This document shows, in pieces, positions 7,553 through 43,750 of a DNA stretch of 64,000 bases (the first letter of the stretch is position 1; each line of letters starts with the position of its first letter). The DNA lies in assembly GCF_001368915.1 (NCBI RefSeq), contig NZ_CSTE01000005.1, positions 124,001 through 188,000 of the forward strand, written 5' to 3'. A program made the translations under genes and the position numbers. The stretch is from Haloferax massiliensis. Lineage in GTDB: Archaea; Halobacteriota; Halobacteria; Halobacteriales; Haloferacaceae. A model generated the notes under the pieces. That model did not search any database, was not told the origin of the DNA, and saw only the letters and a list, made by a program, of their open reading frames with translations.

Positions 7553-8386
7553 TCACGAATCCGCCGACCGGCGTTCGACGAACCGGTCGCCGAGCGCGAC
7601 GCTTCCGTGGCCGAGGGCGACCCCGGCGACCACGTCGGTCCCCCAGTGAATCCCGAGGTACATCGTCGAGAACGCGATTGCGGACGCGAGGAGCGACGCG
7701 ACGACGGCCCACGCGGGGTACGTCTCTCGCGTCCGAATCGCAATCGCCGCCGCCGACACCGAAAGCGACGTGTGAAGCGACGGGAACACGTTCGTGTTTA
7801 CGTTCACCTCGCCGGTGAGAATCTGCGTCTGCGGATAGCTGCTGTAGAGGAGCGACTCGACCTGCCCCGGCAGGAGGTTACGCGGGCCGTAGGAGATAAA
7901 CAGGATATAGCAGGTCAGACCGATGGCGTAGTTCGCCGCGTACGTGACAGCGGTGAGTTTCAGCGGGCGGTCGTCGGCCGCCACGAAGTACGCGATGAAC
8001 GGGAACACGAGCAAGAAGACGTATCCCGAGAGATACACCGTCGAGAGGACGGCGGTGAGCGCCGGCGTGGCGAGCGACTGAACGGACCCGACGAAGTTCC
8101 CCTCGACGGCGTAGATGACGCCGGTGGCGTTCCAGCCCAGCGCCCACGAGAGCTCCGGACCCACGCCGCGGGCGACCTTGTTCACGAGGAGGACGACCGT
8201 CAGCAGGCCGAGGTACGGGGCCGCCTCGCGGAATCGACCCCTCCCCGAGCCGTACGCCCCCGCGAGGCGCGACGGGCCGACGATAGTGAGCGTCGCGACC
8301 GCCAACGCGATGGCGGCACCGCCGACGACGCGGAGGAGAACCGCGACGAGCGGCGAGACGTTAACCAGAGACTGTGTGGGATTCAT
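7553..8386 (-). CDS. PAP2-family membrane phosphatase
   Basis: A 277-residue multi-pass membrane protein from MNPTQSLVNVS. The PAP2 signatures are PSLHTSLSVS (motif C2, with the catalytic-support His) and STMYLGIHWGTDVVAG (motif C3, with the nucleophile His and Asp). Such enzymes dephosphorylate lipid phosphates or polyprenyl pyrophosphates at the outer membrane face. The ATG overlaps the end of the upstream substrate-binding protein by four bases (ATGA), so the two are translationally coupled. That suggests a joint role in surface lipid or glycan handling. Confidence 0.88.
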   Translation of the reverse strand: MNPTQSLVNVSPLVAVLLRVVGGAAIALAVATLTIVGPSRLAGAYGSGRGRFREAAPYLGLLTVVLLVNKVARGVGPELSWALGWNATGVIYAVEGNFVGSVQSLATPALTAVLSTVYLSGYVFLLVFPFIAYFVAADDRPLKLTAVTYAANYAIGLTCYILFISYGPRNLLPGQVESLLYSSYPQTQILTGEVNVNTNVFPSLHTSLSVSAAAIAIRTRETYPAWAVVASLLASAIAFSTMYLGIHWGTDVVAGVALGHGSVALGDRFVERRSADS

Positions 8387-10248
8387 TCTTGAATGAGGAG
8401 GGTGCCGTCGGTCGAGTAGGCGTACCCGGCGTCTTCGAACACCGACCGCGCTCGCTCCGCGTCGAGCGTGCCGGTCCCCGCGTCGCCGACGAAATCGAGT
8501 TCGGAGACGGTCTCGCGCCACGCGTCGTCGTCCGGGACGTACTGGGTGGTTTCGAGCGGCGAGGACGCGGGCCGGGCCTCGCTGCCGAACAGCGACTCCA
8601 CGAGGAACTCGCGGTCGACGAGTCGGGCGACCGCCCGGCGGAACCGGGGGTTCATAAACGGCGGCCGCCGGTGGTTGTAGCCGATGTGGTAACACCACTC
8701 GGGTCGGCTGGAGCGGACGGAGATGCCGGGTTCCTCCTCCGCGGCTTCCCTCGCGTCGGCCGACAGCGAGTTCGCCGTCGCGTCCGCCGCGTCGGCCGCG
8801 AGAAGCTCGACGGCGGCACCGTCGGACGGAACGACGTCGAACCGCAGCGAGTCGAACGAGAGGCCGCCGTCGAACCGGGACAGCCAGCCGTCGAGCGCGT
8901 CGTCGGTGGCGAGGAAGTGGTCCGCGAACGGCTCCATCGAAATCGACTCTCTGGCCGTCGTTCCCGTCACGCGAAGCGGGCCGCTCCCGACCGGAGAGAG
9001 GTTGTTCCGGACGAGCGCCTCAGTGACGTTGCCCCCGTCGAGCCACGACGCGCTCGTCGGGCGGGCGAACGGCTCCCAGACGTGCTCGGGGAGCACCGGA
9101 ATCGTCAGCGCGCGCGCCGCGACCGACCGGCTCACGTCGCCGAACCGAATCGTCGCCTCGCGGTCGGACGCGGCGTCGACCGAGTCGACGAGCGAGGCGC
9201 GGCCCCGGTACCGCGGCGACGGCACCGACTGGTCGAGCGACCCGAGCGCCGTGTCGGAGATGAACCGGAAGGTGAACGCCACGTCCGACGCCGTTATCGG
9301 CTCGCCGTCGTGCCACACGAGGTCGTCGCGGAGCCGGAGCGAAAGCGTCGTCGCGTCCCCGTCGGACCACTCCCACGACGCCGCCATCCACGGTCGCATC
9401 CGGTCGTAAATCGGACGGCCCAACGAGTCGTAGACGAGGTCGAGGAGCGTCCCGTCCGAGCGAAACGGCGTCGAAAGCGGGTTGAGGTTCTCCGTCGGGC
9501 GCGAGTCGTCAAGCGTCATGCGGAGCTCGTTAGCGGGGGTCGGCCCGTCGGTCGTCGTCGCGGACGTCGGCCGCTCGGTCGGTGTCGGGGTCGCGGACGG
9601 CGCGGCCGTCGACTCGGTCGGCGAGGCGGTCGCCGCCGTGGGGACTGTCCTCGCACCGAGATACCCCGTGAGGCTGTGGATTCCGACGCCGTCGGGCCAG
9701 TTGGCTCGCTCCGGCCGGGTCGCCTGCGCCGGCCGCGGGGCCGCGACGGGCGTGAACGGTTGGGCCTCCGCGACGCGCCGCTGAATCTCCGCGAGCGTCG
9801 CGGCGCGAACGGAGCCGGTCTCCGTCCGCTGTCGCTCCAGAAGCGAGTCCAACGACAGGTCGCCGTATCCGAACGGGTTTTGCCACCCGCGGCCCGGGCC
9901 GTAGCGAGAGTGGAGCAGGGGGCGGAGGAAGTCCGGGTCGCGCCGGAGCAGCAGGCGGGAGACGTAGATATCGAAGTCGTGGTTCGAGAGCACGTCGCGG
10001 AGGAGCTCCTCCCGGCTCATCGGAACCACGGTCGCCGCGATGCCGACCGTCTGGAGGCGCGTGGCGAGATAGCGGGCGAGCCTCGTCGCCATCGCGTCGG
10101 TGTCCGCGGGGACCGTTTTGACAGAGAGCGAAAGCGGCGTCCGTTCGTCGCGCGCGACCGTCGATTCCAGCTGTCGGACACACCCGCCGGTCAGGCCCGC
10201 GCCTGCGAGCGCCAAAACCGACCGTCTGGTTAGCCGTGTTGATGACAT
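8383..10248 (-). CDS. Circularly permuted SBP_bac_5-type solute-binding lipoprotein
   Basis: A 621-residue exported lipoprotein: a Tat-type start TRRSVLALAGAG and a lipobox ending at Cys23. Residues about 38-200 look like the C-terminal lobe of family 5 peptide-binding proteins (ARYLATRLQTVGIAATVV, then FDIYVSRLLLRRDPDFL). A Thr/Ser/Pro linker follows (about 203-238). Then comes the normal N-terminal part (MAASWEWSDG, LRDDLVWHDGEPITASDVAF) running on to VFEDAGYAYSTDGTLLIQE, where family members usually continue into the lobe that is here placed first. No permease or ATPase is adjacent. The following PAP2 gene overlaps it by 4 bases. The ligand is unknown. Confidence 0.85.
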   Translation of the reverse strand: MSSTRLTRRSVLALAGAGLTGGCVRQLESTVARDERTPLSLSVKTVPADTDAMATRLARYLATRLQTVGIAATVVPMSREELLRDVLSNHDFDIYVSRLLLRRDPDFLRPLLHSRYGPGRGWQNPFGYGDLSLDSLLERQRTETGSVRAATLAEIQRRVAEAQPFTPVAAPRPAQATRPERANWPDGVGIHSLTGYLGARTVPTAATASPTESTAAPSATPTPTERPTSATTTDGPTPANELRMTLDDSRPTENLNPLSTPFRSDGTLLDLVYDSLGRPIYDRMRPWMAASWEWSDGDATTLSLRLRDDLVWHDGEPITASDVAFTFRFISDTALGSLDQSVPSPRYRGRASLVDSVDAASDREATIRFGDVSRSVAARALTIPVLPEHVWEPFARPTSASWLDGGNVTEALVRNNLSPVGSGPLRVTGTTARESISMEPFADHFLATDDALDGWLSRFDGGLSFDSLRFDVVPSDGAAVELLAADAADATANSLSADAREAAEEEPGISVRSSRPEWCYHIGYNHRRPPFMNPRFRRAVARLVDREFLVESLFGSEARPASSPLETTQYVPDDDAWRETVSELDFVGDAGTGTLDAERARSVFEDAGYAYSTDGTLLIQE

Positions 10249-10309: not shown

Positions 10310-11782
10310 TCAGACTCCCAGAAAGAGCGGCCACGCGAGCAGGAGAACCCACAGGCAGACGGCCGCCGAAAGCGCGGTTCGACGGGGGGAAGACGACTCG
10401 AAGCGACGCTGTCCGACGACGGCGAGCGCCCCGAGCGCGACGAGCACGGCGAACCGATGGAGGACGATTTCGACCGGGACGACCGCGACCTGTATCGACG
10501 CGAAGTCGGCGACCAGCCCGACCCCGTAGCCGACGAACGCGACGCCGAACCACAGTTCCGGCCGGTAACCCCGTGGGAGCCGAACTGCGAGGACGACCGG
10601 AGCCGCGGCAAACACCGGGTAGAGCAGTCCGGCGACGACTTTCGGGTGGTTGGGGACGACGCTCTCGAAACCGAGCGCGGCCGACCGGACCAAAAGCGGG
10701 AGGGCGGCGAGCGCGACGAAGAGCGCGACGCCGCGCTGGAATCGGTAGTCGGCGAGGCGGGACCAGCGGAGGCGCTCGACGACCACGCCCATATCCATCC
10801 CGTCGCGTCGGGTGAACAGGGCGGCGAGACCCCCGACACCGACGAAGACGACGGCGAGTATCGAAAGGGCGTTTCCGACGCCAGCCGCCGTCGTCGTCGG
10901 GGGACCGAGCGCGGAGGCGGCGGCGTCGCGTTCGGGGTCGGCGCGCGCCGCGGCATCGCCCCGGTCAGTCGCCGATTCGACGGTCGCTGGACGGCGCAGG
11001 TCCTCCTTCGGGAGCGTCGAGAGTTGGGGCGGGCCGAGTTCGACGACCGACACCCAGCCGTCGGCGTCGATGATGCCGCCGTTGGCGAACCGCTCGCGGC
11101 GAACGTCGACGACGGTCGGCTGCCGCAGCAGGTCGCGCTCGACGACGTGCTGCGGGCCGGCCAGACTGGTCACCGTGTGTCGGAGCCGAAACCAGTCCCA
11201 GTAGTCACGGTGGGCCTGAATCGCCGTCCACGAGTCGTCCGGTGCCCCGCCGCCGTACAGGCGGAGGTGGATTCGGCTCCCGAAGTACGTCCCGTCGTGG
11301 AGCTGCATCGACTCCGCGATCCACAGCCCGCCCGAGTCTGCGGTGTCGACGAAGGTGAACCGGTCCGCGCCCGTGGCGGCCCCCCACGGGGCGTCAACCT
11401 CGTCGGTCGGTGCCTGTTCGGCGGACGCCTGTTGCCACGATTCGTTCGTCTCGTCCCACGTCGCGTCGCGCGAGTAGAGGAGAAGCGAGCGGACCCGCGC
11501 GGGGTTCCCCTCGACGACGAGGTTCACCGGGAGCGTCAGCGAGTCGAACGAGCGGTCGCGGCTGGTGAACGGCCAGAGCCTGTCGCCCCGTTCGCCGACG
11601 GCGACCAGTCGAACGTCGTCGACGGACTTCGGACCGTTCGGTGCCGACGCCGCCGCGACCGTCGACCCGCCCCCGCGGGCGTCGAAGTCGACGACGCTCG
11701 CAGTCGGCACCGCTGTCGTCGCCACAAGGAGGACGAGGCCGAGGACGACGAGGCCCTCGACCGCTCCGAGACGAGACGCCAT
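10310..11782 (-). CDS. Membrane protein with LssY_C-like extracellular domain
   Basis: The 490-residue protein has an N-terminal membrane helix (about 8-28), an external domain of about 230 residues and about six helices after residue 300. The external part has features recalling LssY C-terminal domains: LPVNLVVEGN, then a late GSRIHLRLYG and an Asp/His-rich ending HVVERDLL. LssY_C is often found near PAP2 phosphatases, and a PAP2 gene lies two genes away. The assignment is by motif memory and is tentative. It is divergent from the arylsulfotransferase gene. Confidence 0.55.
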   Translation of the reverse strand: MASRLGAVEGLVVLGLVLLVATTAVPTASVVDFDARGGGSTVAAASAPNGPKSVDDVRLVAVGERGDRLWPFTSRDRSFDSLTLPVNLVVEGNPARVRSLLLYSRDATWDETNESWQQASAEQAPTDEVDAPWGAATGADRFTFVDTADSGGLWIAESMQLHDGTYFGSRIHLRLYGGGAPDDSWTAIQAHRDYWDWFRLRHTVTSLAGPQHVVERDLLRQPTVVDVRRERFANGGIIDADGWVSVVELGPPQLSTLPKEDLRRPATVESATDRGDAAARADPERDAAASALGPPTTTAAGVGNALSILAVVFVGVGGLAALFTRRDGMDMGVVVERLRWSRLADYRFQRGVALFVALAALPLLVRSAALGFESVVPNHPKVVAGLLYPVFAAAPVVLAVRLPRGYRPELWFGVAFVGYGVGLVADFASIQVAVVPVEIVLHRFAVLVALGALAVVGQRRFESSSPRRTALSAAVCLWVLLLAWPLFLGV

Positions 11783-11921: not shown

Positions 11922-13271
11922 ATGGTCAAGCGGACGCATCTGCGAGTCGCCGCGGCAGTCGCCCTCCTCGTCTGCGCGGGCATCGTCGGGGCCGCGTACC
12001 TGAGCCGGCCGACCTCGGCGGTGGCGGACGCGACCGGCGAGAGCGCACGGGTCGCGCCCGCGAACGGGACGACGGTCATCGCGACCGATTCGAACACGTG
12101 GCTCGGCCGAGAGAGCGACGGGGCGCGAGCGAACGCCGAACTCGTCGCCTTCGGGGCCGACGGAGAGCGGCGCTACTACGACGACTCCCACACCCGTTAC
12201 TGGGACGTCGACCCCGTCGAGGGGACGAACGCGACGGTCGAGTACCTCTATGCGGACCACCTCACCGCCGACGAGTGCGGCGGCGAGAGCGTGTGTACGC
12301 GGAACGGCATCGAGCGCGTGAACCTCACTACCGGCGAGGTCGAAGGGATTTACAGCAGAGTGACCGCCGGGAAGCACTCGACGCGGTGGCACGACGCCGA
12401 CAGGCTGAGCGATTCGACGTACGTCGTCGCCGACATCGCCGCGGACCGCGTGTTCGTCGTGAACACGACGACGGAACTGGTCGAGTGGTCGTGGGACGCA
12501 CAGGCGGCGTTCGACCCCGCGACGACCGGCGGGCCGTACCCGTCCGACTGGACGCACCTCAACGACGTCGAGGTGCTCGAAAACGGGCTCGTTCAGGTCA
12601 GCCTCCGCAACCACGACAGGGTCGTGTACCTCGACCGCGACACCGGCCTCGTCGAGAACCGGACGCTCGGAGACGGCTCCCACGACGTCCTCTACGAGCA
12701 GCACAACCCCGATTACATCGCGAACCCGGACGGCGACGACGCCGTGCTCGTCGCCGACTCCGAGAACAACCGTCTCGTCGAATACCGCGACGACGACGGC
12801 GAGTGGGTCCGCTCGTGGGACTGGCAGGACGAACAGCTCCAGTGGCCGCGGGACGCGGACAGGCTCCCGAACGGGCACACGCTCGTGACGGACTCGAACG
12901 GGAACCGCGTGTTCGAACTGGACGAGACCGGCGACGTCGTCTGGAGCGTCCCCGTCGCGTTCCCCTACGAGGCCGAACGGCTCGGAACCGGCGACGAGAG
13001 CGCCGGCGGCCCGCCCGCGCACGAACTCGACCTCCGGAATCGGACGGCCGGAGGTCCGAGCGCCGGGGCCGGCGGCACGCCCCGGTCGGTTCTCCCGAAC
13101 CCCGTGGTGAACGCCGTCTACTACGTCCTCCCGCGGTGGATGGGGGTCTCCGAACTGCTGGTCGCCGGCCTCGCGCTCGGAATCGGACTCGCGTGGGCCG
13201 TCGCCGAACTGCGGTGGTTACCGTACCGCGTCTCGCTTACGAACCCGGTCTCCCTCCGAAAGCGGAACTGA
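11922..13271 (+). CDS. Arylsulfotransferase (ASST) family membrane protein
   Basis: The 449-residue protein has an N-terminal membrane helix (about 8-27), a beta-propeller body and a C-terminal helix (about 412-432). ASST-type repeats are clear: RWHDADRLSDSTYVVADI, WTHLNDVEVLENGLVQVSLR, YEQHNPDYI and WPRDADRLPNGHTLVTDSNG. The family transfers sulfate or acts on related conjugates. In haloarchaea sulfated sugars occur in surface glycans, so modification of exported glycan is the likely role. The next gene, a GT-C glycosyltransferase, begins 11 bases after its stop. Confidence 0.82.
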   Translation: MVKRTHLRVAAAVALLVCAGIVGAAYLSRPTSAVADATGESARVAPANGTTVIATDSNTWLGRESDGARANAELVAFGADGERRYYDDSHTRYWDVDPVEGTNATVEYLYADHLTADECGGESVCTRNGIERVNLTTGEVEGIYSRVTAGKHSTRWHDADRLSDSTYVVADIAADRVFVVNTTTELVEWSWDAQAAFDPATTGGPYPSDWTHLNDVEVLENGLVQVSLRNHDRVVYLDRDTGLVENRTLGDGSHDVLYEQHNPDYIANPDGDDAVLVADSENNRLVEYRDDDGEWVRSWDWQDEQLQWPRDADRLPNGHTLVTDSNGNRVFELDETGDVVWSVPVAFPYEAERLGTGDESAGGPPAHELDLRNRTAGGPSAGAGGTPRSVLPNPVVNAVYYVLPRWMGVSELLVAGLALGIGLAWAVAELRWLPYRVSLTNPVSLRKRN

Positions 13272-13282
13272 GAGTCAACGAT

Positions 13283-14986
13283 ATGAGTTCAACGACCGAC
13301 GACACGTCGAACGGTCTCGACCCCGCGGCCCCGAACCGAGAGAACGCGTTCACCGACGGCGTTCCCGGCCTCGGCCGCGAGAGCCACGCGTGGTTCGCCA
13401 TCGCCATCGTCGCCGGACTCGTCGTCTCGGCGGCGTACGTGACGACCCACGACTACCCGGCCTACGGGTCCGGGCTGTATCTCGAAATCGCGGCGCAGAT
13501 TCGGGCCGGCGGCTACGCGCTCCCGACTTCGATTCCGTACTACGACGGCGGGATTCCGTTCGCGTACCCGCCGCTCCAGTTCTACGTGGTCGCGTTCCTG
13601 ACCGACCTCGGCGTCTCGGGGATGACGCTCAGTCTCGTCCTCCCGGCTATCGTGACGGTCCTCTACCTCGTGCCGTACTACGGAACCGCCCTCGAACTCC
13701 TCCCGACGCGGCGACAGGCGGGGGTCGCGACGGCGGTTCTCGCGGTCAGCCCCCCGGTCCTGCAGTGGCACCTCTCGGCCGGCGGCATCGTCCGCGCGTC
13801 CGCGTTCTTCCTGTCGCTCTGCGGGGTCTACGTCGGGGCGAGGCTGTTCCGCCGCGGCACTCGCCGCCCGCTGTGGGTCGGGTCCGGTATCATCTTTTTC
13901 GGGCTGACCGTCCTCTCGCATCCGACGTACACCGTCTTCTTCGGGGTCAGTTGGCTCGTCCTCTACGCGATGCTCGACCGGACGCTCCCCGGTCTCGTCA
14001 GCGGAGCTCTCGTGGCGCTGGGCGGCCTCGTCCTCGCCGCGCCGTGGTGGGTCAACGTCGTCTCCGTCCACGGCGTGGGGGCGTTTGCGGGGGCGGCGGG
14101 CAGTCACAGCGGCATCGCCGGCGGCGTCAGTCGACTCCTCGACCAGTTCGTCTACCCGCTGGAACCGACCGTCGTCACGGTGTTCTTCCTCGCGAGTTTC
14201 GCCGCCGCGGGCGTGCTCGTCTCCCAGCGGAAGTTCACGCTTCCGCTGTGGCTCTTCGTCTGCGCGTACGCCATCGGGAAGGAGCGCTTCCAGTTCGTCG
14301 CCGGGGCGATGATGATATCGACGGTGCTGTTCGGCGTCGTCGTACCGCGGCTGACGGACGGCGTTCGGGGGTCGTTCGATAACCGGCAGGTGATGGCCTC
14401 GACGCTGGTCGTGGTCCTCGTCGTCGGGACGTGCCTCGGCGGGTTCTACGCCGCGAGCGGCCTCGGTGCAGCACACCACGGCAGTCCGAGCCTCCCCCCG
14501 TTCATCGACGCCGACGACCGGGAGGCGATGGAGTGGGCGAGCAACAACACCGACGAGGACGCGTCGTTCGTCGTGCTCTCGGACGCCGCCGAACTGTTCC
14601 CCCACTACGCCGAGCGGAGCATCCTCGTGGGACCGTGGGGCGTCGAATGGAAGAGCCCGGACAGGTACTACGACCAGATTTCGGCGTTCAAAACGGCGAG
14701 CACCTGCGGGAACGCGACCTGCGTCACCGAGTCGATGGAGTCCGTCGACGCCTCCCCCGACTACCTCTACGTCCCCCGCGGGACGTACACCGTCCGGGGG
14801 CTCCAAGAAGACGGGACCGAACGGCTCCGCAGGTCGCTCGCCGACAGTCACCGATACGAGCGAGTCTACGGAAACGACGGGGTCGTGGTGTACGCGGTCG
14901 AGCCGAGCGACACCGACAGTCCGACCGCCGAAACGGCCGGTTTGTCAGACGCTAAGCGCCGTCGACCGGGATTATCCGGCCGATAG
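13283..14986 (+). CDS. GT-C type membrane glycosyltransferase (GT39/ArnT-like)
   Basis: A 567-residue polytopic protein with about 12 hydrophobic helices. Its first outward loop carries the acidic DYPAYGSGLYLEIAAQI and YYDGGIPFAYPPLQFY segments, as in ArnT/PMT-type enzymes that use polyprenyl-phosphate sugars. A soluble C-terminal domain follows (about 440-560). The start MSSTTDDTS at 13283 was chosen because the longer upstream frame is an antisense-like Arg-rich shadow of the arylsulfotransferase. It probably glycosylates surface lipid or protein together with the neighbouring sulfotransferase. Confidence 0.8.
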   Translation: MSSTTDDTSNGLDPAAPNRENAFTDGVPGLGRESHAWFAIAIVAGLVVSAAYVTTHDYPAYGSGLYLEIAAQIRAGGYALPTSIPYYDGGIPFAYPPLQFYVVAFLTDLGVSGMTLSLVLPAIVTVLYLVPYYGTALELLPTRRQAGVATAVLAVSPPVLQWHLSAGGIVRASAFFLSLCGVYVGARLFRRGTRRPLWVGSGIIFFGLTVLSHPTYTVFFGVSWLVLYAMLDRTLPGLVSGALVALGGLVLAAPWWVNVVSVHGVGAFAGAAGSHSGIAGGVSRLLDQFVYPLEPTVVTVFFLASFAAAGVLVSQRKFTLPLWLFVCAYAIGKERFQFVAGAMMISTVLFGVVVPRLTDGVRGSFDNRQVMASTLVVVLVVGTCLGGFYAASGLGAAHHGSPSLPPFIDADDREAMEWASNNTDEDASFVVLSDAAELFPHYAERSILVGPWGVEWKSPDRYYDQISAFKTASTCGNATCVTESMESVDASPDYLYVPRGTYTVRGLQEDGTERLRRSLADSHRYERVYGNDGVVVYAVEPSDTDSPTAETAGLSDAKRRRPGLSGR

Positions 14987-18363: not shown

Positions 18364-20517
18364 TCAGTCCGAGTCGGCCGGACTGGTCTCCGCGCGCTTC
18401 GACGGCGTGATAAACGAGTCGCGCTGGCTCATCTCCTCATCCGATAGGTGACAGGAGATGTAGTGGTCGCCGCCGTCGACCGCTTCGAGTTCCGGGAGGT
18501 CCCGCTCGCAGACGTCGCCGATTTTCTTCGGGCAGCGCGTCTGGAACGGACAGCCCGACGGCGGGTTGATGGGGCTCGGAACGCTCCCTTCGAGGAGGAT
18601 GCGGTCCGTCTCGCGGTCCGGGTTCGCGTGGGGGACCGCGGACAGGAGGCTCTCCGTGTAGGGGTGGAACGGCGGCGAGAACACCTGTTCGATGCTCCCG
18701 AACTCCGCTATCTTCCCGAGGTACATCACGGCCACGCGGTCGCAGATGTGCCGGATGACGCCGATGTTGTGCGAGATGAACAGGAACGAGATGTTCTCGT
18801 CGTCCTGAATCTCGTTCAGGAGGTTGAGAATCTGCGCCTGCACGCTCACGTCGAGCGCCGACACGGGCTCGTCGCAGACGATGAGCTTCGGTTCGACCGC
18901 GAGCGCGTGCGCGATGGCGACGCGCTGTTGTTGGCCGCCGGAGAACTCGTGGGGGTACTTGCTCGCGGCGGCCCGCGAGAGGCCGACGCGTTCGAGCAGG
19001 TCGCCCACGCGTTCGCGCTTTTCCTCGCCGGTGGCGATGCCGTGTTTCTCCATCGCGCGACCGACGATTTGGCCGACGGTCTTCCGCGGGTTGAGCGAGC
19101 TCTGGGGGTCCTGGAAGATCATCTGCATCTCGCGGCGCAGACTCCGAATCTCCGAGGAGCCGAGCTCGTGGAGCGGCTGGCCCTCGAAGTACACCTCGCC
19201 GTCGGTCGGTTCGAGGAGGCGGAGCGCGGTGCGAGCGACCGTGGACTTCCCGCAGCCGGACTCGCCGACGAGCCCGACGGTCTCGCCGGGGTAGACGTCG
19301 AAGCTCACGTCGTCGACGGCCTTGACGTGCCGCCGCTCGACGGTCGGCAGGCCGCCGCCCTCCCACGAGAGGTGGACGTTGCCGAAGACGCCCTCGCCGG
19401 CGTCGAAGTACTTCTTCAGGTTCCGCACCTCGAACAGCGGCTCGCCGGTGCGGTCGATGTCGCGGCGGCCGGTCCCCGCTTCGGGGACCGTGCTCTCCGA
19501 GAGGTCGAGGTCGTCGGCGTGGAGACACGCCGCGCGAGAGGAGTCGTCGCCGACGGCGTCGAGCGACGGGTCGCCGCCGGTCCGGCACGCTTCGGTGGCG
19601 TGGGGACACCGCGGCGCGAAGTTACAACCGCTCGGGAGGTTCCCGAGGTCGGGCATCGCGCCGTCGAGCGTCGGCAGTTCGTCGTAGTCGGTGTCGACCT
19701 CCGGGATGGAGTCGATGAGCGCGCGGGTGTAGGGGTGTCGCGGGCGGTCGAACAGGTCGCCGAGTTCGGCCGTCTCCACGAGGTTCCCCGCGTACATCAC
19801 GCCGACGTGGTCGCACGTCTGGGCGACGACGCCGAGGTTGTGGGTGATCATCAGCACGGCCGTCCCCTCGCGCTCCTGCATCTCGTTGAGCAGGTCGAGA
19901 ATCTTCGCCTGCGTCGTCACGTCGAGCGCGGTGGTCGGCTCGTCGGCGATGATGAGGTCCGGCTCGCAGGAGAAGCCGATGGCGACGAGGACGCGCTGGC
20001 GCATCCCCCCGGAGAACTCGTGGGGGTAGTCGTCGACGCGCTCTTCGGCGTCGGGGATACCGACGTCGTCCATCGATTCGACGGCGAGCCGGCGTGCCTC
20101 TGACTTGGAGACGTCCTGGTGGCGGCGAATCGTCTCCGTGATTTGCTCGCCGACGGTCATCACCGGGTTGAGCGACGACATCGGGTCCTGCGGAATCATG
20201 GCGATGCGGTTGCCGCGGATGTCGCGCATCTCGGCGTCAGTCTTCTGCAGGAGATCTTCCCCATCGAAGACGACCTGCCCGCCGGTAATCTCGCCGGGCG
20301 AGTCGATGAGGCGCATGAGCGACCGCGCCGTCACGGACTTGCCCGCGCCCGACTCGCCGACGAGACCCATCGTCTCGCCGCGGTCGAGTGAGAACGACAC
20401 CTCGTTTGAGGCGACGACGGGGCCGCCCTCGGTGCGGAACTCGGTTCTGAGTCCGCGCACGTCGAGCAGCGGGCCGTCGTCGGCCTCGCCGTCGGTCGCG
20501 GTGCTGGGAGCGCTCAT
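18364..20517 (-). CDS. Fused DppD-DppF ABC transporter ATPase
   Basis: A 717-residue protein with two complete nucleotide-binding domains. First: Walker A GESGAGKSVT, signature FSGGMRQR, Walker B LIIADEP. Second: GESGCGKST, FSGGQQQR, LIVCDEP. Each ends with the Cys-containing oligopeptide-transporter tail (FAPRCPHATEAC and FQTRCPKKIGDVC). It powers import by the two permeases encoded upstream, with a 4-base overlap to DppC. Fusion of the two ATPases into one chain is common in haloarchaea. It is the last gene of the operon. Confidence 0.93.
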   Translation of the reverse strand: MSAPSTATDGEADDGPLLDVRGLRTEFRTEGGPVVASNEVSFSLDRGETMGLVGESGAGKSVTARSLMRLIDSPGEITGGQVVFDGEDLLQKTDAEMRDIRGNRIAMIPQDPMSSLNPVMTVGEQITETIRRHQDVSKSEARRLAVESMDDVGIPDAEERVDDYPHEFSGGMRQRVLVAIGFSCEPDLIIADEPTTALDVTTQAKILDLLNEMQEREGTAVLMITHNLGVVAQTCDHVGVMYAGNLVETAELGDLFDRPRHPYTRALIDSIPEVDTDYDELPTLDGAMPDLGNLPSGCNFAPRCPHATEACRTGGDPSLDAVGDDSSRAACLHADDLDLSESTVPEAGTGRRDIDRTGEPLFEVRNLKKYFDAGEGVFGNVHLSWEGGGLPTVERRHVKAVDDVSFDVYPGETVGLVGESGCGKSTVARTALRLLEPTDGEVYFEGQPLHELGSSEIRSLRREMQMIFQDPQSSLNPRKTVGQIVGRAMEKHGIATGEEKRERVGDLLERVGLSRAAASKYPHEFSGGQQQRVAIAHALAVEPKLIVCDEPVSALDVSVQAQILNLLNEIQDDENISFLFISHNIGVIRHICDRVAVMYLGKIAEFGSIEQVFSPPFHPYTESLLSAVPHANPDRETDRILLEGSVPSPINPPSGCPFQTRCPKKIGDVCERDLPELEAVDGGDHYISCHLSDEEMSQRDSFITPSKRAETSPADSD

Positions 20518-21413
20518 TCTATCGCCTCCACTTTGGGGTCGAGCACGTCACGCAGTCCGTCGCCGAGCATGTTGAACCCGACGACGGCGATGCCGATAGC
20601 CAGCGCGGGGAACAGCAACATCCACGGCGCGGTCTCCATGAAGCCGCGACCGGTGTTAATCATCAGCCCCCACGACGGCCGCGGGGGTTGCGCGCCGAGA
20701 CCGAGGAACGACAGGCTCGCCTCCGCGAGGATGGCAAAGGAGACGTTCAGCGACCCCTGCACCAGCATGGGTGCCATGCAGTTCGGGAACACCTCGCTGA
20801 AGACGATGCGCGAGTCGCTCTCGCCGCGGGCGACGGCGGCCTCGACGTACGCCTCGTTGCGTTCGGCCAGCGCCGCGCTCCGCGAGACGCGGGCGATGTA
20901 GGGCGTGTAGACGAACGCCAGCGCGATGATGACGTTGCTCAAGTCCGGGCCGAGGACGACGAGGAGCGTGAGCGCGAGCAACACCGGCGGGAACGCCATC
21001 GCGGCGTCCATGACGCGCATCAGTATCTCGTCGGTCAGGCCACCGGCGTAACCGGCGACGACGCCGATGACCGCCCCGACGGCGAGCGCGCCGGAGATAG
21101 CGCCGAAGCCGACGTACAGCGAGATGCGGCTCCCCATGACGACGCGGCTGAAGATGTCGCGGCCGAGGTCGTCGGTGCCGAACGGGTGTTCGACCGACGG
21201 GGCCTGCGAGCGGTCTTCGATGTTCGTCTGCTCGATGGGGTACGGCGCGATGAGCGGCGCGAAGACGGCGACGAGCACGAGCATCACCACGATGGAAAAG
21301 CCGAGCATCGCCTTCGTGTTACTGCGGAACTTCCGGACGAACCGGGCGATACGGTCGCGCTGTGACTGCGTGATGGTGAACCGACCGCGGTCGGTCTCCT
21401 GTTCGGTCGCCAT
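20514..21413 (-). CDS. Dipeptide/oligopeptide ABC transporter permease, DppC-like
   Basis: A 299-residue inner permease of the DppC/OppC type with the N-terminal extension helix and the EAA-type loop SAALAERNEAYVEAAVARGE that contacts the ATPase. The segment HPFGTDDLGRDIFSRVVMGS is the family signature. It starts in a TGATG junction with the stop of the DppB gene and overlaps the ATPase gene by 4 bases, so the operon is tightly coupled. Confidence 0.93.
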   Translation of the reverse strand: MATEQETDRGRFTITQSQRDRIARFVRKFRSNTKAMLGFSIVVMLVLVAVFAPLIAPYPIEQTNIEDRSQAPSVEHPFGTDDLGRDIFSRVVMGSRISLYVGFGAISGALAVGAVIGVVAGYAGGLTDEILMRVMDAAMAFPPVLLALTLLVVLGPDLSNVIIALAFVYTPYIARVSRSAALAERNEAYVEAAVARGESDSRIVFSEVFPNCMAPMLVQGSLNVSFAILAEASLSFLGLGAQPPRPSWGLMINTGRGFMETAPWMLLFPALAIGIAVVGFNMLGDGLRDVLDPKVEAIE

Positions 21414-22372
21414 CAGTCGTCACCTCCGTAGCGGATACGGGGGTCGAAGTACGCGTACAGCAGGTCTGCGGCGAAGTTCGAGAACATGTAGATGAGTGCG
21501 ACCACGAGGATGCACCCCTGAATCAGGGGGATGTCGCGGCTCTGAATCGCGGTCAGCGTCAACCGACCGATGCCGGGCCAGAAGAACACCTCTTCGAGCA
21601 CGACGACCCCGCCGAACGCGTAGCTGAACTGGAACGCGATGACCGTGATGACGGGGATGATTGCGTTCTTGAGCGCGTGCCTGAGGACGATGACCCGTTG
21701 GCTCATCCCCTTCGCACGCGCGAGATTGATGTACTCCTCGCTGAGCACCTCCAGCATCGACGACCGGGTCATCCGCATGATGTAGGCGGTGAGCGCGAAG
21801 CCCATCGCCCCCGCGGGGAGGGCGAGTCGCGTGAGCGACCCGACGAGGTCCTCGCTCGGGGAGACGTACCCCCCGGTCGGAAAGAGGTTCAGCCAGACGG
21901 CGAACACCAAAATGAACACCAGCCCCCACAGGAAGATGGGCATCGAGATGCCGACGAAAGCGAACATCGAGGCGCTCACGTCGGGCGCTTCGTTCTGGTT
22001 GACGGCGGCGTAGACGCCGAGCGGAACCGACAGCACGACGGCGACGAGCGTCGCGGCGACCGCGAGCATCATCGACCGCGGCAGGCGCTCGGCGATGAGT
22101 TGCGCCACGGGCTCGCCGAATCGGAGCGATTCGCCCATGTTCCCCTGGAGGAGCCCGACGACCCAGTCGATGTACTGCACGTACAGCGGGCGGTTGAGTC
22201 CCAGTTGGGTTTGGAGCGCTTCGAGCGATTGTTCGGTCGCGTTGGGGCCCAAGATGAGCAGGGCCACGTCACCGGGCAGGATGTTGGTGACGGCGAAGGC
22301 GATGAGCGTGACGAAAAACAGCGTCACCGCCATGAACCCGACGCGCCGAACGACGTAGTTGTACATCGACAT
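21413..22372 (-). CDS. Dipeptide/oligopeptide ABC transporter permease, DppB-like
   Basis: A 319-residue permease with about six helices. It begins MYNYVVRRVGFMAVTLFFV after two residues and has the DppB landmarks LLQGNMGESLRFGEPV and the EAA loop EYINLARAKGMSQRVIVLRH. It shares one base with the start of the DppC gene. Sixteen bases separate it from the substrate-binding protein upstream, so all four genes form one operon. Confidence 0.93.
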   Translation of the reverse strand: MSMYNYVVRRVGFMAVTLFFVTLIAFAVTNILPGDVALLILGPNATEQSLEALQTQLGLNRPLYVQYIDWVVGLLQGNMGESLRFGEPVAQLIAERLPRSMMLAVAATLVAVVLSVPLGVYAAVNQNEAPDVSASMFAFVGISMPIFLWGLVFILVFAVWLNLFPTGGYVSPSEDLVGSLTRLALPAGAMGFALTAYIMRMTRSSMLEVLSEEYINLARAKGMSQRVIVLRHALKNAIIPVITVIAFQFSYAFGGVVVLEEVFFWPGIGRLTLTAIQSRDIPLIQGCILVVALIYMFSNFAADLLYAYFDPRIRYGGDD

Positions 22373-22387
22373 TGTGTGGAATCCCTG

Positions 22388-24061
22388 TTAGCGGTCGAGC
22401 CAGTTGTCGCCGAACTGCAGCGTCGATCCGTCGGGCGCGCCGATGTCGCCTTTGTACTGCGAGGCGGCTCCGTAGAGGCTCGGCTGCCACCACAGGAAGA
22501 GGTGGCCGGCGCGGTCCTCGTGGAGAATCTCCGTCGCCTGGTGGTAGAGTTCGGCGCGCTCCTGTTCGTCGTAGATGGTCCTCGCCTCCTCGACGAGCGC
22601 GTTGTAGTCCTCGTTCACCCAGTTGGTGAAGAAGAACGCCCCGTTGGGGTGCAGGAACTTGTAGAACGACACGTCGGGGTACCAGAGCGCGAGGTAGGAG
22701 CTCGTCGTCGCCTGGAAGTCGCGGTTGGAGTAGACGTCAGAGAGCCACGTGCTCCACGTGATCTGCTGGATTTCGAGGTTGATGCCGACCTCGGCGGCGT
22801 CGGCGGCGATGACCTCCGCGGCCTGCACCTGCGTCGGGTAGGACTGCGGAATCTTGAACGTCGCCGTGAAGCCGTCGGACATGCCGGCGGCGTCGAGGTG
22901 CTCCTGTGCCTTGTCGAGGTCGCGTGGGCGAGGTTCGATGTCCGGGTTGACCCACGGGCTGCCGGGCGTCGCCGGGGACGCGGTGGTCTGACCGGTGCCG
23001 TAGAGGGCCGCCTCGGCGACCTTCTCCTTGTCGATGGTGTAGTCGAGCGCGAGGCGGGCGTCCCGGTTGTCGAAGGGAGCCACGTCGCAGTTCAGGCCGA
23101 GGTAGACGAGCGATTTCGGGAACTGCTTCTCGAATCGAACGTCGGGGGCCTGCTCGACGCGGGAGACGTCCTTCGGCGCGATGCCGTTGATGAAGTCGTA
23201 CTCGCCGGCGAGGAACGACTGGAGGCGGACGCTCGGGTCCGGAACCTCGCTCTTGACGATGGTGTCGATGAACGGGCCGTCCTCGTCGGACGCGCCCCAG
23301 TAGTCCTCGTTGCGCGTCATCGTGAACGAGGTCTCGATCTCCCGGCTCTCGAACTTGTACGGGCCGGTCCCGATGGGTTCTTCGACCATGTCCTTCTCGG
23401 CGTTCTCGGCGGGCATGACCGACAGTTCCGCCGTCGCCATCTTGGCGAGGAACGGCGCGAACGGCTCGGTGAGTTGGACTTCGAACGTGTAGTCGTCGGG
23501 GGCGCGAAGCTCCTCGACGTAGTCGAAGAAACCGGTGGCGAGGTAGTCGCCGTTCTGGACGCGCTCGTAGCTCGCGAGCACGTCGGCCGAGGTCATCTCC
23601 TCGCCGTTGTGGAAGGTGACGCCCTCCCGGAGGTTGAACGTCAGGACCGTGTTGTCGTCGGACTGCTCCATCGACTCCGCGAGGTGCGGCTGGATGGAGT
23701 AGTCGTCCTGCAGCGCGACGACTTCCTCGTAGATGTTCTCCAAGACGCGCTTGGAGGCCGCCGAGGTGTCGATGTGCGGGTCGAGACCCTGCACCGGCAC
23801 CGCGCCGCCCCACTGGAGCGTCCCGCCCTGCTTCCCACCACTTGCCGCGGTCGTGTCGGTGCTCTCCGTGTCGCCGCCTTCGTCCGTGGAGCCCGAACCT
23901 TCGGTCGTGCCGTCGTCGGAACCGCCGCCCGTACAGCCGGCGAGCGCCACCGCGCCGGTCGTCGCCGCCGCCCCGAGGAAGGTACGGCGGTCGAAACGAC
24001 TGCGACGCGTACCGTCGCCGGTGCTATCGGAGGAATCGCTCCCCTTGCCATTCTCTTGCAT
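22388..24061 (-). CDS. SBP_bac_5 solute-binding lipoprotein of the Dpp-type transporter
   Basis: From MQENGKGSD this 557-residue lipoprotein has a Tat signal (DRRTFLGAAATTGAVALAGC) and lipobox Cys, an acidic Thr/Gly/Ser spacer, and the normal family 5 order: LQWGGAVPVQGLDPH, FNLREGVTFHNGEEMTSADV, then EHLDAAGMSDGFTATFKIPQ and the C-terminal lobe. This unpermuted order contrasts with the paralogue at 8383-10248. The ligand may be peptides or N-carbamoyl compounds, judged from the adjacent hydrolase. An ATG 18 codons upstream is less likely because it would precede the Tat region with non-signal sequence. Confidence 0.9.
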   Translation of the reverse strand: MQENGKGSDSSDSTGDGTRRSRFDRRTFLGAAATTGAVALAGCTGGGSDDGTTEGSGSTDEGGDTESTDTTAASGGKQGGTLQWGGAVPVQGLDPHIDTSAASKRVLENIYEEVVALQDDYSIQPHLAESMEQSDDNTVLTFNLREGVTFHNGEEMTSADVLASYERVQNGDYLATGFFDYVEELRAPDDYTFEVQLTEPFAPFLAKMATAELSVMPAENAEKDMVEEPIGTGPYKFESREIETSFTMTRNEDYWGASDEDGPFIDTIVKSEVPDPSVRLQSFLAGEYDFINGIAPKDVSRVEQAPDVRFEKQFPKSLVYLGLNCDVAPFDNRDARLALDYTIDKEKVAEAALYGTGQTTASPATPGSPWVNPDIEPRPRDLDKAQEHLDAAGMSDGFTATFKIPQSYPTQVQAAEVIAADAAEVGINLEIQQITWSTWLSDVYSNRDFQATTSSYLALWYPDVSFYKFLHPNGAFFFTNWVNEDYNALVEEARTIYDEQERAELYHQATEILHEDRAGHLFLWWQPSLYGAASQYKGDIGAPDGSTLQFGDNWLDR

Positions 24062-42508: not shown

Positions 42509-42946
42509 TTGGATGTCTCGAAAATTCGCCCTTACGATTGGAAGTGTGACAAGAATGGCCGCTTGGAGAGAGAATTGAGGTAGTTTCCGCTGACCCAATC
42601 GGCAAAATACACGCATTACAGCCCTGCTATACCCGTTGTAGTCTCAACTTCCAACACACGGTACGCCTCCAAGTTTCGGAGGATGAATGTGTTGCGTGCC
42701 TTCTCAACAAGGCTATCGGGCTTGAATCAAACCTGGTGACGAGTACCTGCATTCCGACTCCGTTTCTCCGGAAACGGTGGGGTGTGTAGTCCAAATACCA
42801 ACGGTTATGCTGAGAACTGACAACTCGTTTCGCTCCCTATAGAGCTGAACTCCAGAACTTCTGACGATATCTGAGGTGGCTTTGCGAGGGGAGTCAAGCG
42901 ACGAGGAGCCGACACAGTTTTGATTCTGTGCATACAACGTATGTAC
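42509..42946 (+). other. Intergenic region before the toxin-antitoxin pair
   Basis: 438 bases without a supported gene. It contains copy C of the dispersed repeat (42641-42702) and presumably the promoter of the antitoxin gene, although no clear TATA box was identified. Confidence 0.4.
42641..42702 (+). repeat. Short dispersed repeat, copy C
   Basis: It reads GTCTCAACTTCCAACACACG, then TTTCGGAGGATGAATGTGTT and GCGTGCCTT. It shares the first 13 bases, the CGGAGGATG core and the GTGTTGCGTG end with copy B at 39562-39606, with a longer middle. Confidence 0.5.
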
Positions 42947-43249
42947 ATGGGCACGAAGCGGGTCAATTTCCGGCTCCCCGAAGAGTTGGTAACACGCGCC
43001 GACATCGCTGCCGAAGTTACTCACAAAAACAGAACGGAGATTCTCATTGAAGCACTCCGACAGTATCTCGAAGAGAAAGAGTCTGATGAGAGTTTTCGTG
43101 AGGCCGTCGTCGAACTGTATCTGGACAACCACATCGAGTTCGAGAAACTTGTCGAGATTATCGGGCGGCAAGATGCCGAAGCTGTCCGTGCGTCGAAAGA
43201 GGTGCTTGATCGTGGCGAAGAACTCGCAGACAAACTCGCAGACCTCTAA
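42947..43249 (+). CDS. Ribbon-helix-helix antitoxin
   Basis: A 100-residue protein. The RHH DNA-binding unit is at the N-terminus: MGTKRVNFRLPEELVTRADI gives the strand and first helix, and HKNRTEILIEALRQYLEEKE the second helix. The C-terminal half is acidic and helical and would bind the toxin. Its TAA is directly followed by the ATG of the PIN-domain gene, so they form a toxin-antitoxin operon. An ATG two codons earlier (42941) is an alternative start. Confidence 0.85.
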   Translation: MGTKRVNFRLPEELVTRADIAAEVTHKNRTEILIEALRQYLEEKESDESFREAVVELYLDNHIEFEKLVEIIGRQDAEAVRASKEVLDRGEELADKLADL

Positions 43250-43750
43250 ATGCTCGTTGTAGACACGAGCGCATTCATCTCTCTTTCAGTCGGCGAAGTG
43301 CTTGACGTCTTCGTCACCGAGTTTGACGTCGCCACTACAGAGACAGTTCTTGAGGAACTACACAGAACTGCTGAGTACAACGACCACCATGGCAAAGCCG
43401 CCAATACCGCCCTCGATATGGCCGACGAGTTCACCGTTGTTGCTGTCGCTAGTGGTGAGTTTGTGACGAGTCGAATCGACGATGGTGAAGCCAGCTGCGT
43501 AGCTGCAGTCCGTGAGGTGGATGCAGCGTTCTTGATCACCGACGACTACAGAGCCCTTCCTGAGCTTCGAAAACTAGTGAGTGCAGAAGTTGCGTTATCT
43601 CCGATCGTTCTCCGGGCGCTGGTCAAACGCGCTGCTCTCAGCGAAGAGGAAGCAAGAGTCGCTTTCGAGACCATGGCAGAAGGACGCGATTGGCTTGGTG
43701 CGCCGATCTACCGGTACGCTCGGCAGCTCCTCGACGATACCTCAAAGTAG
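43250..43750 (+). CDS. PIN-domain (VapC-like) toxin
   Basis: A 166-residue PIN nuclease. The acidic site residues can be placed: Asp in MLVVDTSAFISL (5), Glu in TVLEELHRTAEY (about 36), Asp/Glu in SRIDDGEASCVAAVRE (about 77-80) and Asp in FLITDDYRALPEL (about 97). VapC enzymes cleave RNA and are held in check by the antitoxin encoded immediately upstream with no gap. The position next to decayed IS elements fits an accessory module. Confidence 0.85.
   Translation: MLVVDTSAFISLSVGEVLDVFVTEFDVATTETVLEELHRTAEYNDHHGKAANTALDMADEFTVVAVASGEFVTSRIDDGEASCVAAVREVDAAFLITDDYRALPELRKLVSAEVALSPIVLRALVKRAALSEEEARVAFETMAEGRDWLGAPIYRYARQLLDDTSK

Follow-up and report, generated by a model that had tools for sequence, protein, structure and literature searches.

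The locus raises the question of what a solute-binding protein (SBP) of family 5 does when the parts of its fold stand in swapped order along the chain, its neighbour is a PAP2 enzyme and no ABC transporter genes lie at its side. It is found in a window of 64,000 nucleotides from Haloferax massiliensis, the whole stretch of DNA that was analysed. Taken together, the observations are best explained by a permuted two-lobed lipoprotein that would serve a PAP2 lipid phosphatase or phosphotransferase rather than an ABC importer, a reading to which we give a probability of roughly 0.55.

The SBP gene occupies positions 8383 to 10248 on the minus strand, an open reading frame read-out having confirmed the coordinates of the first-pass annotation, and its product of 621 residues was classed as a circularly permuted SBP_bac_5 lipoprotein by Pfam, hhalign and AlphaFold. 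Residues 1-23 (10180-10248) form a twin-arginine signal peptide with a lipobox, so that the RR motif and lipobox cysteine of a Tat lipoprotein are both present; Cys23 is invariant in the 56 aligned family members, and the RR-to-lipobox pattern is seen in 40 of them, many of the others being cut short at the N-terminus. The segment of the C-terminal lobe that has been relocated to the N-terminus follows (approximately residues 36-192, 9673-10143), as delimited by hhalign and by the second stretch of its match to the structure 5isu described below. It contains a GWQNPF motif (residues 121-126, 9871-9888), which the family alignment shows in all 56 members, against none of the 17 permuted SBPs outside the PAP2-linked family. 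A Thr/Pro-rich linker (residues 203-237, 9538-9642), placed by the alignment and by low model confidence, joins the old C- and N-termini and leads into the normal N-terminal part of SBP_bac_5, which runs to the new C-terminus (residues 239-616, 8401-9534). The linker is a Haloferax trait, most relatives in the 56-member alignment having a short and different joint; the nearest named relatives of the protein are themselves from Haloferax (86-87% identity).

The whole protein is a clear match to Pfam SBP_bac_5 (151.1 bits, cut-off 32.4). Residues 284-616 align to positions 2-285 of the 368 in the model, and residues 38-202 alone fall weakly on positions 294-362 (15.6 bits, below the cut-off). 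The unpermuted paralogue at 22388-24061 (minus strand), which lies with DppB, DppC and DppDF genes at 18364-22372, covers positions 2-362 in a single stretch and serves as the internal control for which it had been proposed. For a comparison of the two halves by hhalign, the alignment of the 56 relatives was set against one of nine unpermuted SBPs from the same genome. Residues 34-202 match the canonical C-part with P = 2e-15 versus 0.25 for the N-part, and residues 238-621 match the canonical N-part with P = 3e-42 versus 0.4 for the C-part; the best of 30 column shuffles gave P = 0.028 and the reversed control 0.24. The two matches cover canonical columns 421-571 and 110-419, respectively, and abut at 419|421. 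When the pieces were rejoined in normal order, the hhalign score rose from 320 to 409 with coverage of columns 110-571. An hmmsearch of PDB sequences gave the same picture for the canonical SBP 5isu, where profile positions 222-547 match chain residues 31-321 and positions 52-186 match 354-485, with the order swapped. Canonical and permuted orders also separate cleanly in an HMM comparison of 70 proteins, with HMMs retrained on the same proteins, the independent tests of order being the hhalign comparison, its controls and 5isu.

Both parts of the SBP_bac_5 fold are present and the canonical chain order is absent; the protein is therefore a permuted variant of the family rather than a canonical member. 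The earlier claim of swapped lobes is borne out by the reciprocal matches with their controls, by the abutment and by the 5isu alignment, and profile searches with the separate segments, as that claim had called for, place the N-terminal segment on the C-part only and the rest on the preceding part only. Judged from sequence comparison and supported by the predicted structure, the chain is circularly permuted: its old termini are joined, and new ones have been created where a strand of the C-terminal lobe begins. The domain limits of OppA are known, and these together with the Pfam position place the cut most likely inside the C-terminal lobe and not between the lobes.

The AlphaFold model of the permuted SBP is a single confident body (pLDDT 86.1, pTM 0.83), with low confidence at residues 1-32, a short loop (118-121) and the linker (207-217 and 223-234). 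One body, rather than two separate domains, is what the proposal of a permutation had predicted. Going by pTM and pLDDT, the moved segment should pack in the same body, and the protein is predicted to fold as one two-lobed binding protein. The top Foldseek matches are only SBPs of the same fold, over about 400 columns with TM about 0.5 on the target, as is to be expected of a sequential aligner faced with a permutant.

The gene for the PAP2 phosphatase/phosphotransferase (277 residues, 7553-8386, minus strand) begins within the SBP gene, its ATG (8386-8384) overlapping the SBP stop codon (8385-8383) by 4 nt (ATGA) on the same strand. Its product has the PAP2 profile and the catalytic His/His/Asp of the superfamily. 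Among 50 PAP2 proteins from such loci, all match PF14378 and PF01569, and FPSLH, IHW and Asp251 are invariant; the invariant His and Asp are as expected of an active PAP2 enzyme. Its model is confident (pLDDT 91.6), with Aur1-Kei1 and inositol phosphorylceramide synthase as nearest but weak Foldseek matches (best E = 1.5e-3, TM about 0.5). The partner thus resembles PAP2_3/Aur1-like lipid phosphatases and phosphotransferases in its PAP2_3 match, common to 50 of 50, and its invariant catalytic-type residues, and differs from them in having a partner SBP and in the weakness of the fold match. A search of the open-licence literature for haloarchaeal PAP2 enzymes returned nothing.

The same layout was found in 67 loci of the genome collection, in haloarchaeal or archaeal records. 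These are close relatives by construction, because they were retrieved with peptide patterns from the permuted SBP; 65 match the query over essentially the whole length, one (L061) is cut by a contig end and one (L063) is frame-broken. The same order of segments throughout attests the conservation in other haloarchaea that had been left for checking. A PAP2 gene lies directly downstream of the SBP in 73 of 85 gene copies (SBP open frames counted in the 67 loci, a few of them fragments), with a median gap of 5 nt and often a 4-nt overlap. The 12 copies without a PAP2 gene of their own comprise those at the contig edge (L061) and in the broken frame (L063), nine in Natrinema-type clusters, which are second copies after an SBP-PAP2 pair, and a second Halogeometricum copy (L026). 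Tandem SBPs in eight loci each have their own PAP2.

Among 194 Halobacteria genomes drawn evenly, 126 carry the SBP family (best E below 1e-100), and 27 others have weaker matches only (1e-20 to 1e-74), which belong to other SBPs. A profile of the 50 PAP2 proteins from SBP loci picks out the strong PAP2 subfamily in precisely these 126 genomes (best E below 1e-70), the other 68 having neither. The overlap of 126 in 126 does not amount to 126 independent events, because adjacent genes are inherited and transferred together. Even so, the coupling to PAP2 noted at first is stronger than one locus could show, both in adjacency and in shared genomes.

Other neighbours are less constant. Upstream of the SBP lies a conserved membrane protein of 490 residues (10310-11782, minus strand; 22 of 67 relative loci), which is conserved in haloarchaea and has many invariant Trp, Arg and His residues. 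It matched no Pfam family, and its identification as the PAP2 companion domain LssY_C was rejected since none of 21 members gave that Pfam match. Divergent from the SBP gene, at 11922-14986, are genes for arylsulfotransferase-like (ASST-like) and large membrane glycosyltransferase-like proteins, which are near in 21-27 of the 67 loci. Elsewhere in the window, adjacent genes at 42941-43750 look, from their sequences, like a ribbon-helix-helix antitoxin and a PIN-domain toxin.

With the DppB and DppC of the window as queries, no homologue was found in any of the 67 PAP2-linked loci, and OppD/F-like matches occur in only six, always on the opposite strand. The first-pass annotation was thus right that ABC partner genes are absent nearby; permease and ATPase genes are not in the same operon and could be encoded elsewhere. 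What failed is its implication that permutation goes with a loss of transport, since DppB-DppC operons, which usually include DppD/F, also harbour permuted SBPs of the same cut, one of them in the same genome. This second permuted SBP_bac_5 protein (L082:6753-8684, contig C3:44752-46683) is followed by two BPD_transp_1 permease genes, and its type occurs full-length in 37 of 194 genomes. The operon is preceded by an HTH_10 regulator gene. In a third, diverse group, the permuted SBP shares its operon with DppB, DppC and two ATPases (L118-L127, L140, L141, L143); another permuted SBP, in L133, has Dpp-type genes nearby on the other strand. All three haloarchaeal groups share the same order. The Dpp-operon proteins (L082:6753-8684, L118-L127) also share the cut and are Tat lipoproteins, and differ from the PAP2-linked family in lying beside DppB and DppC and in having neither PAP2 nor GWQNPF. 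Permutation as a mark of departure from transport is ruled out by these relatives, and it is not the cause of a new role, because permuted SBPs also occur in Dpp transport operons.

Across L118-L127 and L128-L137, permeases encoded beside permuted SBPs mostly have their best match in the DppB and DppC of the other permuted operon, and those beside unpermuted SBPs match the window's set. SBP order and permease lineage may go together, a pattern which L138 and L141 do not fit.

Outside the Halobacteria but within the same phylum, nearly all matches listed cover the canonical N-part region only. The exception, from genome G352 (L138:6730-8496), is permuted at about the same place, lies with Dpp genes and ends in a Thr/Pro/Lys-rich tail with PGF and a hydrophobic anchor; an independent origin or a transfer is possible. 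Its family holds three more genomes with full-length matches, and permutation was confirmed for one of these (L156). Three further SBP_bac_5 lipoproteins of that family (706-766 residues; L154:5325-7445, L155:4865-7012, L157:3967-6267) show another permutation, with the cut midway through the C-terminal lobe, and adjoin DppB, DppC and ATPase genes. When the L138 protein was used as query for a bacterial permutant with the same cut on plasmids, the matches listed were two-piece only.

The PAP2-linked family forms a single long-stemmed clade in the tree (support 100), placed beside the Dpp-linked permuted SBPs (support 88), and the split between permuted and unpermuted SBPs is weakly supported (46). 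Some unpermuted SBPs fall among the permuted in a second tree, from which two long rows were removed. A single clade of all permuted SBPs was rejected by the AU test (p = 0.004, with long branches in play), whereas the haloarchaeal core minus L141 was not rejected as one clade (p = 0.43). Because the single clade was rejected, more than one origin of permutation is most likely, subject to caution over the long branches and weak backbone. Permutation is thus a recurrent trait of archaeal family-5 SBPs, and pairing with PAP2 is a separate specialisation.

The nearest structures by fold are the family-5 SBPs OppA, DppA, NikA and AppA, of which the permuted SBP likewise has all segments and the WHDG, P-H-W and GSGP motifs. 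Unlike them, it has the swapped order, a PAP2 partner, the GWQNPF loop and no ABC genes alongside. Natural circular permutants are uncommon. For family 5, neither the solved structures that matched nor the open-licence literature searched yielded one; the only natural permutant in that literature was MglB-2. This protein (Treponema Tp0684) and its relatives are tethered ligand-binding proteins of ABC type that are circularly permuted in nature; the authors describe MglB-2 as serving an ABC-type glucose transporter as its binding protein (PMC4990184). It is of another SBP class (Type I/cluster B, glucose) with another cut, and the haloarchaeal SBP falls in family 5 instead of the permuted class Ic/Bc. 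What is possibly new is permutation in family 5, with the SBP-PAP2 pair as a new system, a permuted binding protein being already known from MglB-2.

PAP2 active sites face the outside, so that the active site of this partner should lie on the same extracytoplasmic side as the SBP, which would be Tat-exported and lipid-anchored with its chain permuted. SBP and membrane enzyme form a two-gene unit, as their co-occurrence shows. On the cell exterior, the SBP most likely captures a solute or the head group of a lipid; it may present this ligand to the PAP2 enzyme or regulate that enzyme, and would feed no ABC importer. The permutation goes back to transport SBPs and does not account for the new role. 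Recognition of a ligand for the enzyme, or its regulation, is the simplest account, held at slightly better than even odds on the basis of the anchored extracytoplasmic SBP, the loss of ABC partners, the near-invariant tie to PAP2 and the GWQNPF loop. As for the surface role first suggested, one coupled to PAP2 is our best guess.

The main rival is that the SBP is an orphan importer subunit feeding a DppBC permease encoded elsewhere, with PAP2 first stripping phosphate from the nutrient. SBPs that share permeases are known, those sister permuted SBPs that were examined belong to ABC operons or adjoin them, and the same genome has dipeptide permease sets at 18364-22372 and in L082. We nevertheless consider it unlikely, with no permease gene beside the SBP at any of the 67 loci but PAP2 almost always there, and with the family forming its own long-stemmed clade whose GWQNPF motif is absent from the transport forms. 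Less probable still is a shared operon of convenience, where both proteins would work in the same envelope process (e.g., glycan or lipid-carrier turnover) with no action on each other. The ASST-like, glycosyltransferase-like and other membrane genes near a third of the loci would fit, but such neighbours come and go while SBP and PAP2 stay together in all 126 of the sampled genomes that have either, often with overlapping reading frames. That there is no permutation, but a fusion of unrelated or partial domains or else a domain-swapped dimer, is very improbable: Pfam alone does leave the N-terminal segment under its cut-off, but the controlled profile tests, the exact abutment, the single confident body and the uniform layout of the loci speak against it, although a domain-swapped dimer could agree with these data.

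The preferred reading, of an SBP that serves the PAP2 enzyme, can be extended to a haloarchaeal two-protein surface system, in which a former ABC SBP is the ligand-recognition subunit of PAP2 and comes from an archaeal SBP lineage permuted more than once; this fuller version is tentative, at somewhat less than an even chance. Profile libraries label the PAP2-linked family simply as ABC transporter binding proteins. The radiation of permutants, apparently of several origins, together with unpermuted paralogues in the same genome, makes the cost or gain of permutation in a transport protein testable, and the strict pairing of one branch with PAP2 suggests that about two thirds of the sampled Halobacteria have a cell-surface system not yet described.
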